From: Candidatus Desulfofervidus auxilii
GTDB taxonomy: Bacteria > Desulfobacterota > Desulfofervidia > Desulfofervidales > Desulfofervidaceae
Direction: 5' to 3'
Assembly (NCBI RefSeq): GCF_001577525.1
Contig: NZ_CP013015.1
Location: forward strand, 272,173-326,337
DNA: 54,165 bases
Part shown: piece by piece, positions 29,660 through 33,536 of the stretch
Position numbering within the stretch: the stretch's first letter is position 1
Layout of the letters: every line of letters begins with the position of its first letter
Position numbers and translations under genes: made by a program
The notes under the pieces: generated by a model
Seen by the model: only the letters and a program-made list of their open reading frames with translations
Database searches by the model: none
What the model was told of the DNA's origin: nothing

Positions 29660-29736
29660 TGGTGGCGGTGGAGGGATTCGAACCCCCGACTCTGCGGATA
29701 TGAGCCGCATGCTCTGACCAACTGAGCTACACCGCC
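29660..29736 (-). tRNA. tRNA with CAT anticodon (probably elongator Met)
   Basis: A 77-nt cloverleaf with encoded CCA: acceptor GGCGGTG/CACCGCC, D arm with GCTCAGTTGG, anticodon stem TGCGG/CCGCA with loop CTCATAT, T arm GGTTCGAATCC. The CAT anticodon means Met, or Ile2 if lysidine-modified; the paired first base pair excludes the initiator. It lies in the 115 bp between the pyrophosphatase and the CysK-CysRS gene, in the same direction as the latter. Confidence 0.93.
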
Positions 29737-29767: not shown

Positions 29768-32089
29768 TCAAGATTGCTTTTTCTGAACAATTCTCCAAAT
29801 AGGACCTTGATTGGTATCTATAATTTCTATACCTTGAGAAAGCAGTTTCTGACGTAAGGCATCAGCTCGGGCCCAATCTTTTCTCTTGCGGGCCGCTTCC
29901 CGCTCTTTTATAAGTCTCAAAGTTTCCTCATCTAACTTTACCTCATCAATGTCCATAATATTAAGCACTTGATTTAATTCTTTAAAAGTAGATAAAATCT
30001 TTCCTTTATCAGTTTTGTTCAAACCCTTCTGCCATAAAACAGGGTTAATCTCATTTATAAAACTGAAAATAGCAGCCAGAGCAGCAGAAATATTTAAGTC
30101 ATCATCCATGGCCTTGATAAAACGCTGCTTCATGTTTTCAAGAAGAGTATCCAGGAGGGGGTAGCTAGGCTCAGGGGTCTCAAGCTGTAAGTGTAAGATA
30201 AAGTTGTTTAACCGAGCTAGGCTTTTCCTTATGGCATCCAGGCTAACGTAAGAAAAATTGAGAGCTTTGCGGTAATGGGTAGCCAAAAGAAAATACCTTA
30301 TTTCTTTACCAGAATAACCCTTTTTTAGTAAATCATTTACCGTAATATAATTGCCGGCTGAACGAGACATTTTTTGGCCATTTACAAAAACCAGTTCATT
30401 GTGAATCCAATAGTTAGCAAAGGTTTTTCCAGTCAAGGCCTGGGCCATTGCTATCTCATTTTCATTATGGGGAAAGATTAAGTCTTTACCACTGGTATGA
30501 ATATCTATGGTTTCTCCTAGATACTTCATGGCCATAGCTACACATTCAATATGCCACCCTGGCCTAACCTTGCCCCATTCTGTTTCCCAAAAAATACCAG
30601 CCTTTAATTCCTGCAGATTACACCGTTTAAAAAGGGTAAAATCCCGGGGATTCTCCTTCTCATAACTGTCCAAATCTACAGTTAGTCCGATTTTAATCTT
30701 GTCTAAATTAATGCCAGAAAGCTTACCATATTCTTTAAATCGGGAGATATCAAAATATACAGAGTGATGTTTTTCATAAGCATATCCTTTTTGTAAAAGC
30801 TTCCTGGTAATTTCCATCATTTCTGGAATATGTTCACTGGCCTTGGGATAATGTTCAGCCGGTTTTATACCCAAAATTTCTATGTCTTTTAAAAACAATG
30901 TAGTATAAAATTGAGTAATTTCAGTAAGGGGTTTCCCCTCCTCTTGGGCCTTGGCAATAGTTTTGTCATCTATGTCCGTGATATTCACCACATGCCTTAC
31001 TTTCAGTTTTTTGAACTCTAAGTACCTCCTGATTAAATCTGCTACTACCAGACGACGATAAACCCCAAGATGAGGAATGTCATGCACTGTTGGTCCACAG
31101 GAATACATCAAGATTTGCCCAGGAGTAATGGGTTTTAAAAACTCTTTTTTGTGGCTTATGGTGTTATAGAAACGAATTGTAAGAGCTGGCTTTTCCACAA
31201 AGAGAGAGGTGCTTAAATATCGTTCTCCTCCATCAGGAAGTATGACCACAATCACCCCATTTTCAAGGGCTTTTGCCTTTTCTATGGCTATAGCCATGGC
31301 TGCACCACTACTTATCCCTGCCAAGATACCCTCTTCCTTGGCCAAACTTCTGGCAGTGTGCAAAGCTTGCTCAGCCTTTACATTCACCTTTTCGTCTAAA
31401 AATTGCTTATCATAAATACCAGGGACATAAGATTCCTTTAGATTTTTAAGACCAGGAATAAACTCTCCTGGATATGGTTCTACCCCAATGACCTTAATAA
31501 CAGGATTATATTCCTTGAGACGCTTGGAAATACCCATTATTGTGCCCGTAGTGCCCATACCAGCCACTACCATATTGATCTTCCCTTGAGTTTGCTGCCA
31601 AATTTCTTCACCTGTGTTATAATAGTGGGCTTGCCAATTATAAGGATTATTGAACTGATCAGTTAGATAATATTTTTCTGGATGCTTCCGCACCATTTGA
31701 TACGCCTTTTCAATAGCCCCATCTGTACCTAAGTGGGCAGGGGTAAAAAGGAGTTCTGCACCATAAGCCTTTAAGATTCGCTTTCGTTCTGTGCTTACTG
31801 ATTCAGGCATTACCAAAAGTAACTTATATCCCTTTATGGCCGCTACCATGGCCAGGCCTATACCTGTATTACCGCTAGTAGCTTCAATGATTATCTTTTC
31901 TTTAGTCAATTCTCCACTCTTTTCAGCTCCCTCTATCATGGCTAGGGCCACCCTGTCTTTTATTGAACCTCCTGGATTAAACATTTCAAGCTTAGCCAGA
32001 ATAGTAACCCTGGGATTGGGATTAAGCCTCTTTATTTCCACCATAGGTGTCTGACCAATAAGATTTAAAACATTTGGATGCACTTTCAT
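29768..32089 (-). CDS. Fusion of cysteine synthase (CysK) and cysteinyl-tRNA synthetase (CysS)
   Basis: A 773-residue protein in one uninterrupted frame. Residues 1-300 are a PLP-dependent O-acetylserine sulfhydrylase: PLP Lys44 in NPGGSIKDRVA, TSGNTG (71-76) and GISSGA (258-263). Residues 303-773 are a class I cysteinyl-tRNA synthetase: zinc ligands Cys331 (CGPTVHD), Cys516 (HIECVAM), His541 and Glu545 (PHNENE), and KMSRS (573-577). The HIGH motif is altered to HLGV (340-343), losing the second His, and the second His of HHENE is Asn. Cysteine would be made and charged by one polypeptide. It follows selD by 66 bp and may share its operon. Whether the synthetase half is fully active is open. 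Confidence 0.95.
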   Translation of the reverse strand: MKVHPNVLNLIGQTPMVEIKRLNPNPRVTILAKLEMFNPGGSIKDRVALAMIEGAEKSGELTKEKIIIEATSGNTGIGLAMVAAIKGYKLLLVMPESVSTERKRILKAYGAELLFTPAHLGTDGAIEKAYQMVRKHPEKYYLTDQFNNPYNWQAHYYNTGEEIWQQTQGKINMVVAGMGTTGTIMGISKRLKEYNPVIKVIGVEPYPGEFIPGLKNLKESYVPGIYDKQFLDEKVNVKAEQALHTARSLAKEEGILAGISSGAAMAIAIEKAKALENGVIVVILPDGGERYLSTSLFVEKPALTIRFYNTISHKKEFLKPITPGQILMYSCGPTVHDIPHLGVYRRLVVADLIRRYLEFKKLKVRHVVNITDIDDKTIAKAQEEGKPLTEITQFYTTLFLKDIEILGIKPAEHYPKASEHIPEMMEITRKLLQKGYAYEKHHSVYFDISRFKEYGKLSGINLDKIKIGLTVDLDSYEKENPRDFTLFKRCNLQELKAGIFWETEWGKVRPGWHIECVAMAMKYLGETIDIHTSGKDLIFPHNENEIAMAQALTGKTFANYWIHNELVFVNGQKMSRSAGNYITVNDLLKKGYSGKEIRYFLLATHYRKALNFSYVSLDAIRKSLARLNNFILHLQLETPEPSYPLLDTLLENMKQRFIKAMDDDLNISAALAAIFSFINEINPVLWQKGLNKTDKGKILSTFKELNQVLNIMDIDEVKLDEETLRLIKEREAARKRKDWARADALRQKLLSQGIEIIDTNQGPIWRIVQKKQS

Positions 32090-32155: not shown

Positions 32156-33196
32156 TTAAATAATTCTTAACTTCCCCTTATTATGATTGTTAACCACCTT
32201 TCCTATGATACTTGCCTCTTTAATCCCTTCAGCCCGAAGCTTTGCCAGACAGTTAGAGGCATCTTTTTCTGATAAGACAATGATAAGGCCACCTGAAGTC
32301 TGGGCATCAAAGAGTATATCCAGAGTTAGTTCAGAAAGCGATGAATTGACATCTACTAAATTGGCACAAAAATGCTTATTAGCATAGCTTCCAGCAGGAA
32401 TAAGTCCCATAGAGGCATATTTCCAAGCCTCTGGTATGACAGGCACCTCCTTGGCCCAAATTTCTATCTCTTTTTTTGAAGCCATGGCCATTTCTAACAA
32501 GTGTCCACCCAAACCAAATCCTGTTACATCAGTGCAGGCATGGACATCAAACCCTTGCATTATTTCACTTGGTCTAGCATTTAAACTGGCGGCTATGTTT
32601 ATCAACTTTTCTATTGCTTCCTGGCTAGCCAGATTGCCTTTAATGGCGGTAGCAATCACGCCTGTGCCCAGAGGTTTAGTTAGAATTAGGACATCACCTA
32701 TTTGAGCTCCAGCATTAGTCAGTATTTTATCCGGATGGACTATACCACTGACCGCAAGTCCATATTTTATTTCAGGGTCATCTACACTATGACCTCCAAC
32801 TAAAATGGCACCTGCCTCCTGGACTTTATCCAATCCACCTCGTAAAATCTCCTTCAAAATATCTTTAGATACCTCTTTAATAGGGAAACAAACAATATTC
32901 ATGGCTGTTAATGGTTTCCCACCCATAGCATAAATATCACTTAAGGCGTTGGCCGCCGCAATTTGGCCAAAGGAGTAAGGGTCATCTACAATGGGGGTAA
33001 AAAAATCCAGTGTCTGAATTAAGGCTGTATCTTCTGTAAGTTTGTAAACCCCAGCGTCATCACAGGTCTCAAACCCCACCAATAATCTAGGATGTCTCTG
33101 CCGAGGCAATTGTGCCATAATTTCAGCCAGGTCCCCTGGACTCAGTTTAGCTGCTCACCCAGAGGCCTTGACTTTTTCCGTAAGTCTATAACTCAT
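32156..33196 (-). CDS. selD: Selenide, water dikinase (selenophosphate synthetase), predicted selenoprotein with in-frame TGA
   Basis: Read from the ATG at 33194-33196 through a TGA at 33155-33157, the product has 346 residues starting MSYRLTEKVKASG-U-AAKLS. SelD proteins have Cys or Sec here (Cys17 of E. coli), three residues before the catalytic Lys (Lys17 here). Then come the glycine-rich ATP site LLVGFETCDDAG, ALSDIYAMGGKP, GGHSVDDPEIKYGLAV and DAQTSGGL. It makes selenophosphate from selenide and ATP for Sec-tRNA synthesis. The conventional ATG at 33116-33118 would lack the active site, so a pipeline that stops at TGA would misannotate it. The start has AAGGAA upstream and overlaps the previous gene by 11 bp. 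Confidence 0.93.
33125..33142 (-). promoter_or_regulatory. Candidate bacterial SECIS hairpin for selD
   Basis: On the mRNA, CCAGG and CCTGG pair perfectly around a GGA loop, and an outer AG/CT pair continues past one bulged U. The apical loop is about 22 nt after the UGA. A bulged U and a G-rich loop at such a distance are what SelB needs in E. coli fdhF. Found by eye; energetics not computed. Confidence 0.55.
33155..33157 (-). other. Predicted selenocysteine codon (TGA) in selD
   Basis: TGA at codon 14, in the SelD active-site loop KASG-U-AAKLS, where the family has either Cys or Sec. Matching sequence on both sides in the same frame supports readthrough. Confidence 0.9.
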
Positions 33197-33536
33197 ATAT
33201 TTCCTTCACTGTCCTTGGAAAACCTATGCTTCTACTTAGCTCCTTCAACAATTCCTTTGCTACTTTTAAAGAAAGGCCTAACTCTAGGGGCGGATAATCA
33301 GGTGCTAAGACCAGCTTTTTATCAAAACGAAGCATAAGCTCGCATGATAGACAATAATCTTTATCTTCTTGATGTCTTTTCCAAAATGTATCTAAATTTA
33401 TATCATCTTCTTTCTGCCCGATAAAAAGACTGGGATAATCAGCATCATAAAGTAGAATGTATGCCAACCCGTCTTTATGAAATTCTATTAAAAAATGGCG
33501 TGTGTCTTGAAACTGAGTATCAATTCGCATTTCCAT
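33186..33536 (-). CDS. Hypothetical protein upstream of selD
   Basis: A 116-residue soluble protein I do not recognise. It contains a CLSCE motif (DYCLSCELMLRF) about two thirds along and acidic and aromatic stretches in the first half (YILLYDADYPSLFIG). The C-terminal part is probably helical (LSLKVAKELLKELSRSIG). Its stop overlaps the selD start by 11 bp, and it points the same way, so the two are likely co-translated; a link to selenium metabolism is only suggested by this. Start ATG at 33534-33536; upstream DNA is AT-rich. Confidence 0.7.
   Translation of the reverse strand: MEMRIDTQFQDTRHFLIEFHKDGLAYILLYDADYPSLFIGQKEDDINLDTFWKRHQEDKDYCLSCELMLRFDKKLVLAPDYPPLELGLSLKVAKELLKELSRSIGFPRTVKEIYEL

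Follow-up and report, generated by a model that had tools for sequence, protein, structure and literature searches.

Locus and domain architecture

The window, by which we mean the whole stretch of 54,165 nt analysed here from contig NZ_CP013015.1 of "Ca. Desulfofervidus auxilii", carries on its minus strand a single frame of 773 aa in which a cysteine synthase (CysK) is joined to a cysteinyl-tRNA synthetase (CysRS). A preliminary description of this DNA had given the extent of the frame exactly, and the motifs it reported (HLGV in place of HIGH, zinc ligands C331, C516, H541, and E545, HNENE, and KMSRS) are all present. The features are listed below in window positions, which are used throughout unless marked otherwise; counts refer to an alignment of 120 fusions and 97 stand-alone CysRS.

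29768-32089, minus strand: CysK-CysRS fusion gene, 773 aa, ATG start, stop codon at 29768-29770
31190-32089, minus strand: cysteine synthase half of CysK/CysM type, a fold type II PLP enzyme, aa 1-300 (TIGR01136, TIGR01138)
29771-31180, minus strand: CysRS-derived half with CP1, DALR, and anticodon-binding domains, aa 304-773 (TIGR00435; fold match to 1u0b)
31958-31960, minus strand: PLP Schiff-base lysine K44 (SIKDR), Lys in 120/120 fusions
31445-31447, minus strand: basic residue K215 at the place of R220 in M. tuberculosis CysM, Lys in 120/120 fusions
31097-31099, minus strand: zinc ligand C331 (E. coli C28), Cys in 94/120 fusions
31061-31072, minus strand: HIGH motif as HLGV, aa 340-343, from the alignment of fusions
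31052-31054, minus strand: R346, second Arg after HIGH, Arg in 120/120 fusions
30596-30610, minus strand: CP1 element ELKAG, aa 494-498, fusion-specific (near-invariant in fusions, not in stand-alone CysRS)
30542-30544, minus strand: zinc ligand C516 (E. coli C209), Cys in 106/120 fusions
30455-30469, minus strand: HNENE, aa 541-545, with zinc ligands H541 (119/119 fusions) and E545 (71/120)
30359-30373, minus strand: KMSKS motif as KMSRS, aa 573-577, motif Met in 57/120 fusions
29816-29902, minus strand: anticodon-recognition segment with R730, R734, W739, D743, R746, and D758 (E. coli R423, R427, W432, D436, R439, and D451)
32156-33118, minus strand: selD, directly upstream of the fusion gene, 66 bp away on the same strand

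Pfam and NCBIfam models place a PALP/cysteine synthase domain at aa 8-297 and tRNA-synt_1e, DALR_2, and CysS_C at aa 306-766, the CysRS body (aa 304-766) being complete and in full domain order. The fusion scores 392.4 bits against TIGR01136 (CysK/CysM; curated cut-off 344.15), 391 bits against TIGR01138, and 442 bits against TIGR00435 (CysRS; cut-off 340). In a single predicted model (mean pLDDT 85.6, pTM 0.63) the CysK half matches OASS structures (Z ~32), and the CysRS half aligns over 445 residues, the anticodon domain among them, with chain B of 1u0b, the complex of E. coli CysRS with tRNACys (Z 51.9). The linker between the halves comprises only a few residues of low model confidence, and given this and the pTM we draw nothing from the relative placement of the halves.

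No neighbour of the fusion gene was found to be conserved across families, and a conserved operon with selD or other genes was rejected, as none was seen in the neighbourhoods of the relatives. selD was not detected beside the fusion in any of the 18 relatives examined, members of the same family included; in genome G001 of the same family, the mscS-pyrD-pyrK-laccase block is kept and a selD neighbour was not detected. The link to selD is thus probably local, and the cysteine/selenocysteine theme once read from it is not borne out. Rfam at gathering score gave no riboswitch or T-box near the fusion gene. A tRNA-Met(CAT) lies ~31 nt past the stop codon of the fusion on the same strand (29660-29736, minus), and a 116-aa protein with no Pfam match is encoded upstream of selD (33186-33536, minus).

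Distribution of the fusion

The same fused frame was found in 155 of the 395 genomes sampled from the phylum of the window, representing 99 of 246 genera. Most of the matches listed share 46-78% identity with the window fusion, and it also occurs on two public contigs labelled Deltaproteobacteria. A sequencing or assembly error joining two genes is ruled out by this recurrence, and the fusion is a true one, as originally proposed. It was further present in five of 284 genomes of a group drawn around a Deltaproteobacteria MAG, a group perhaps within or outside the window's phylum, and in none of 296 genomes grouped around a locus that bears the label Bacterium BMS3Abin06, a weak negative with no known positive among them. 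Relatives of the CysK half were not found on the viral contigs searched. Judging from these genomes, many sulfur-cycling bacteria appear to carry a cysteine synthase joined to a worn-down copy of CysRS whose chemistry is often lost. A text search of the open-access literature found no published account of a CysK-CysRS fusion.

Some related arrangements were observed alongside. In the single-contig genome G019, the fusion (L032) seems to be interrupted near residue 591 and to continue in a second frame, owing either to a frameshift or to a genuine split. A phylum member without the fusion encodes a stand-alone 378-aa relative of the fused CysK (L033; 58% identity, GLKNL loop, Cys-containing C-terminal tail), possibly of the unfused ancestor type. 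The window's phylum also has a third kind of CysRS-like protein, a 728-aa product (L295:1505-3691, plus strand) in which a CysRS with HLGN and KMAK precedes a family 2 glycosyltransferase domain (Pfam PF00535). It may act in a small-thiol pathway akin to that of mycothiol, and a 729-aa frame in genome G062 resembles it by length only.

Cysteine synthase half and the search for CysE

The fused CysK has the same whole fold and all the catalytic motifs of CysM and CysK enzymes (OASS-B, OASS-A, and the OPSS of M. tuberculosis). The catalytic lysine K44 is unchanged in every fusion, and the substrate loop TSGNTG and the phosphate loop are invariant or near-invariant. It differs from these enzymes in a distinct loop (GLKNMKES), the invariant K215, and the C-terminal CysRS. 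Counted from the EP motif, K215 aligns without gaps with R220 of M. tuberculosis CysM, the residue that binds the phosphate. That enzyme, for which the query sequence matched the PDB entry over its full length, is annotated in the PDB as an O-phosphoserine sulfhydrylase. Since E. coli CysM also has Arg at this position, K215 only hints at O-phosphoserine as acceptor.

The fusion is the only CysK in 38 of the 80 fusion genomes examined, while about half also hold a separate CysK. Cysteine feedback usually acts at serine acetyltransferase (CysE). This enzyme was not found in 37 of the 38 genomes that rely on the fusion, in a search limited to CysE itself at E 1e-30; the lone exception is a weak match in a 576-aa frame. 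Unlike ordinary CysK and CysM, the fusion as sole CysK is thus usually found in genomes with no detected CysE. All six fusion genomes with a separate CysK in which we looked for CysE have it, and in four of them it adjoins that cysK. The failure to find CysE and the place of K215 only suggest an acceptor other than O-acetylserine.

Motif decay under purifying selection

A free-standing cysS, which the preliminary description had proposed to look for together with a free-standing cysK, does exist in the window's genome (G000:C1:1515990-1517408), with canonical HIGH, KMSKS, and zinc ligands and no deviation at any of 65 near-invariant CysRS positions, as against eight of 65 in the fused CysRS. 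A second cysK was not found in that genome. At least one second CysRS match is present in each of the 80 fusion genomes examined, partial or at a contig end in a few drafts. The window's genome has one tRNA-Cys(GCA) gene among 43 tRNA matches, so a dedicated second tRNA-Cys for the second CysRS was rejected.

The retention of HIGH, KMSKS, and all four zinc ligands throughout the family that marks a functional CysRS was not observed. The first His of HIGH is found in 63 of 120 fusions and the Met of KMSKS in 57, and about half of the fusions are missing one or more zinc ligands. All three motif sets are kept in 32 fusions; HIGH and KMSKS are both absent in 52. On a tree of 118 sequences, parsimony counts 14 changes in HIGH, nine in KMSKS, and eight in the zinc set. 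In close pairs of decayed fusions, dN/dS of the Rossmann+CP1 part is ~0.05-0.19 (NG86, some pairs saturated), similar to the CysK half, which argues for a working domain and not a dying one. In these pairs Rossmann+CP1 evolves more slowly than DALR+anticodon taken together, so the main selected function could sit in the former. Decay does not track the presence of a separate CysK (all motifs kept in 12 of 36 sole-CysK and eight of 40 extra-CysK fusion genomes), and this rules out that the CysRS half decayed because a separate CysK had made the fusion redundant.

Channelling of cysteine into aminoacylation had been put forward as the reason for the fusion. This is not supported, because the aminoacylation motifs were repeatedly lost across the 120 fusions while the fusion and purifying selection on it persist. 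Loss of ATP-binding motifs next to a second normal cysS, named at the outset as the combination that would count against the proposal, is what the family displays; for the window fusion it holds in part, HxG and KMS still being there. That fusion also keeps W512, all four zinc ligands, and the anticodon domain, with eight changes at near-invariant positions, so that residual cysteine/ATP binding or slow charging is conceivable in this protein, and about a quarter of the fusions, the window's included, look possibly active. A bifunctional enzyme, in which the CysRS half serves as a second CysRS and charges tRNA-Cys with cysteine handed over from CysK, would suit these proteins and the 32 fusions with complete motif sets. 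We nevertheless regard it as unlikely given the separate CysRS in all 80 genomes and the decay of the motifs in most family members while purifying selection goes on. Moreover, positions that are invariant in the 97 stand-alone CysRS have changed even in "intact" fusions, G533 and K576 mostly to Ser and Arg, respectively, and R470 to Thr; the fourth HIGH residue differs as well.

At this fourth position, L, V, or N prevails in "intact" fusions and I and P occur too, His being outside the five commonest residues; the 97 stand-alone CysRS have H in 74 and N in 23. HLGV therefore fits the norm of the fusion family and is not an oddity of the window fusion, as it had first seemed. The accompanying suggestion of either a divergent active form or another role survives in its second half, another role being probable, while HLGV as a peculiarity of this one protein falls away.

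What the synthetase half might have been kept for

Selection has left several marks on the CysRS half that are specific to the fusions. R346 is Arg in all fusions and mainly V, S, P, T, or A in the 97 stand-alone CysRS, and together with P333, S443, Y445, D472, R489, ELKxG, and G591 it makes up a set of fusion-specific invariant residues lying mainly in Rossmann and CP1. These residues may form a contact with CysK or a new ligand site. Conservation of R346, S443, Y445, R489, and ELKxG, and the low dN/dS in Rossmann+CP1, would also be expected of a structural or scaffolding domain that senses no ligand and serves instead to form dimers, to stabilise the protein, or to dock onto the stand-alone CysRS or the ribosome. 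Such a domain would need neither an invariant set of anticodon-reading residues nor a whole CysRS body of >460 residues, and we consider this role quite unlikely.

Another candidate is a cysteine or sulfur sensor, in which free cysteine or cysteinyl-AMP would occupy the zinc/cysteine pocket and exert feedback on CysK without tRNA, in the manner of HisZ-HisG. W512, H513, and H541 are near-invariant across fusions, the window fusion retains W512 with its four zinc ligands, and the normal point of cysteine feedback is the very enzyme not found in 37 of 38 sole-fusion genomes. On the other hand, the zinc set is incomplete in about half of the fusions, the equivalents of T68 and D229 are relaxed, and the invariant anticodon contacts would be left unexplained, which makes a tRNA-free sensor improbable.

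A cysteine ligase of MshC type, making a small thiol, comes to mind since MshC is a paralogue of CysRS and MshC structures match the predicted model at Z 44-45. The match to TIGR03447 reaches 219.7 bits, far under the cut-off of 485.1, so the fusion falls outside that family. Further, the fusion keeps a tRNA anticodon domain that lies outside the matched MshC structures, adenylation motifs are gone in many fusions, and no conserved partner gene was found, so we think this function very improbable.

Anticodon-reading residues and a putative tRNA-Cys switch

PMC12684709 describes how E. coli CysRS binds anticodon base G34 by R427 and D436 and stacks it on W432, and how a water network links G34 with D436 and R423 (citing Hauenstein 2004). 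Using E. coli numbering obtained by HMMER alignment to 1li5/1u0b, we found the corresponding residues retained in fusions that have lost the catalytic motifs. R730, R734, D743, R746, and D758 are invariant in all 51 decayed fusions (without HIGH and KMSKS) that cover the region, and position 739 (E. coli 432) is aromatic in all 51. The equivalents of R423, D436, R439, and D451 are near-invariant in ordinary CysRS too, and part of this conservation may therefore be structural.

Two things that a control domain calls for are found in the fusions, namely a canonical synthetase present besides the attached one (80/80 genomes) and, at the level of the family, catalytic motifs lost under purifying selection. 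Together with the anticodon-reading residues, they point to a cysteine synthase carrying a captured CysRS that was kept as a tRNA-Cys-binding control domain and not as a second charging enzyme, a reading to which we would give an even chance. The conserved residues lend support to tRNA-Cys binding; that binding and its control of CysK are both inferred. The CysRS half would bind tRNA-Cys, charged or uncharged, and the bound state would be signalled to the CysK active site via the short linker and the fusion-specific surface formed by R346, S443/Y445, R489, and ELKxG. Cysteine synthesis would then follow translational demand, with tRNA-Cys control replacing that by serine acetyltransferase, which was not found in genomes relying on the fusion. 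The more specific proposal that tRNA-Cys on a retired CysRS switches CysK directly and takes over from CysE feedback in a large part of the phylum is tentative, and on balance we lean against it.

The invariant anticodon contacts, the failure to find CysE, and K215 at the place of the phosphoserine arginine of M. tuberculosis CysM would also accord with RNA-dependent cysteine synthesis, the CysK half acting, like SepCysS, on a seryl-type group on tRNA-Cys held by the CysRS half. However, the searches, which did not extend to SepRS, identified no known enzyme that charges tRNA-Cys with Ser or Sep, CysK active sites act on free amino acids, and a canonical CysRS is retained, all of which renders this route highly unlikely.

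Comparison with known synthetase-derived proteins

Control of CysK by an attached tRNA-Cys-binding domain would have its closest parallels in histidine biosynthesis and starvation signalling. HisZ is a HisRS paralogue without adenylation activity that regulates HisG in histidine biosynthesis (PMC9437257). Like the fused CysRS, it is a synthetase paralogue attached to a biosynthetic enzyme of its own amino acid. HisZ, however, is a separate subunit of class II acting at the first committed step and described as histidine-responsive, whereas the CysRS half is fused, of class I, at the last step, and conserved in its anticodon-reading residues. In Gcn2, according to PMC4335047, a HisRS-related domain binds uncharged tRNA and thereby activates and controls an enzyme; the fusion likewise joins a domain of synthetase origin to an enzyme. 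As a eukaryotic kinase, Gcn2 controls translation, while the output of the fusion would be that of a metabolic PLP enzyme.

Compared with canonical CysRS (E. coli, 1li5/1u0b), the fusion shows 39% identity over 445 residues and shares the complete domain order, DALR and anticodon domains among them, but differs in its N-terminal CysK, relaxed HIGH, KMSKS, and zinc sets, and fusion-specific RR and ELKxG. The CysRS* of Desulfobacterales, partner of SelC*, is likewise a second CysRS in a sulfate-reducing group, with a selenocysteine theme. CysRS* has no anticodon-binding domain and is linked to selC*/selB* (PMC9437257). In contrast, the fusion keeps CysS_C with its key residues invariant and its selD neighbour is local, so it does not belong to CysRS*. 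In the 2022 review of synthetase paralogues, the CysRS entries are CysRS* and MshC only, and CysK or cysteine synthase is unmentioned (PMC9437257).

HisZ for histidine and Gcn2 for starvation signalling are thus known cases of control domains derived from a synthetase, while a cysteine counterpart was not found described in the searchable literature. Database entries named "cysteine--tRNA ligase" because of the fused CysRS half may be misnamed. Because the fusions range naturally from intact CysRS halves to fully decayed ones, the question can be put to the test. If true, control of CysK by tRNA-Cys would be a direct feedback from translation to metabolism that acts on an enzyme and not on gene expression, and it would show how bacteria without CysE control a reactive thiol.
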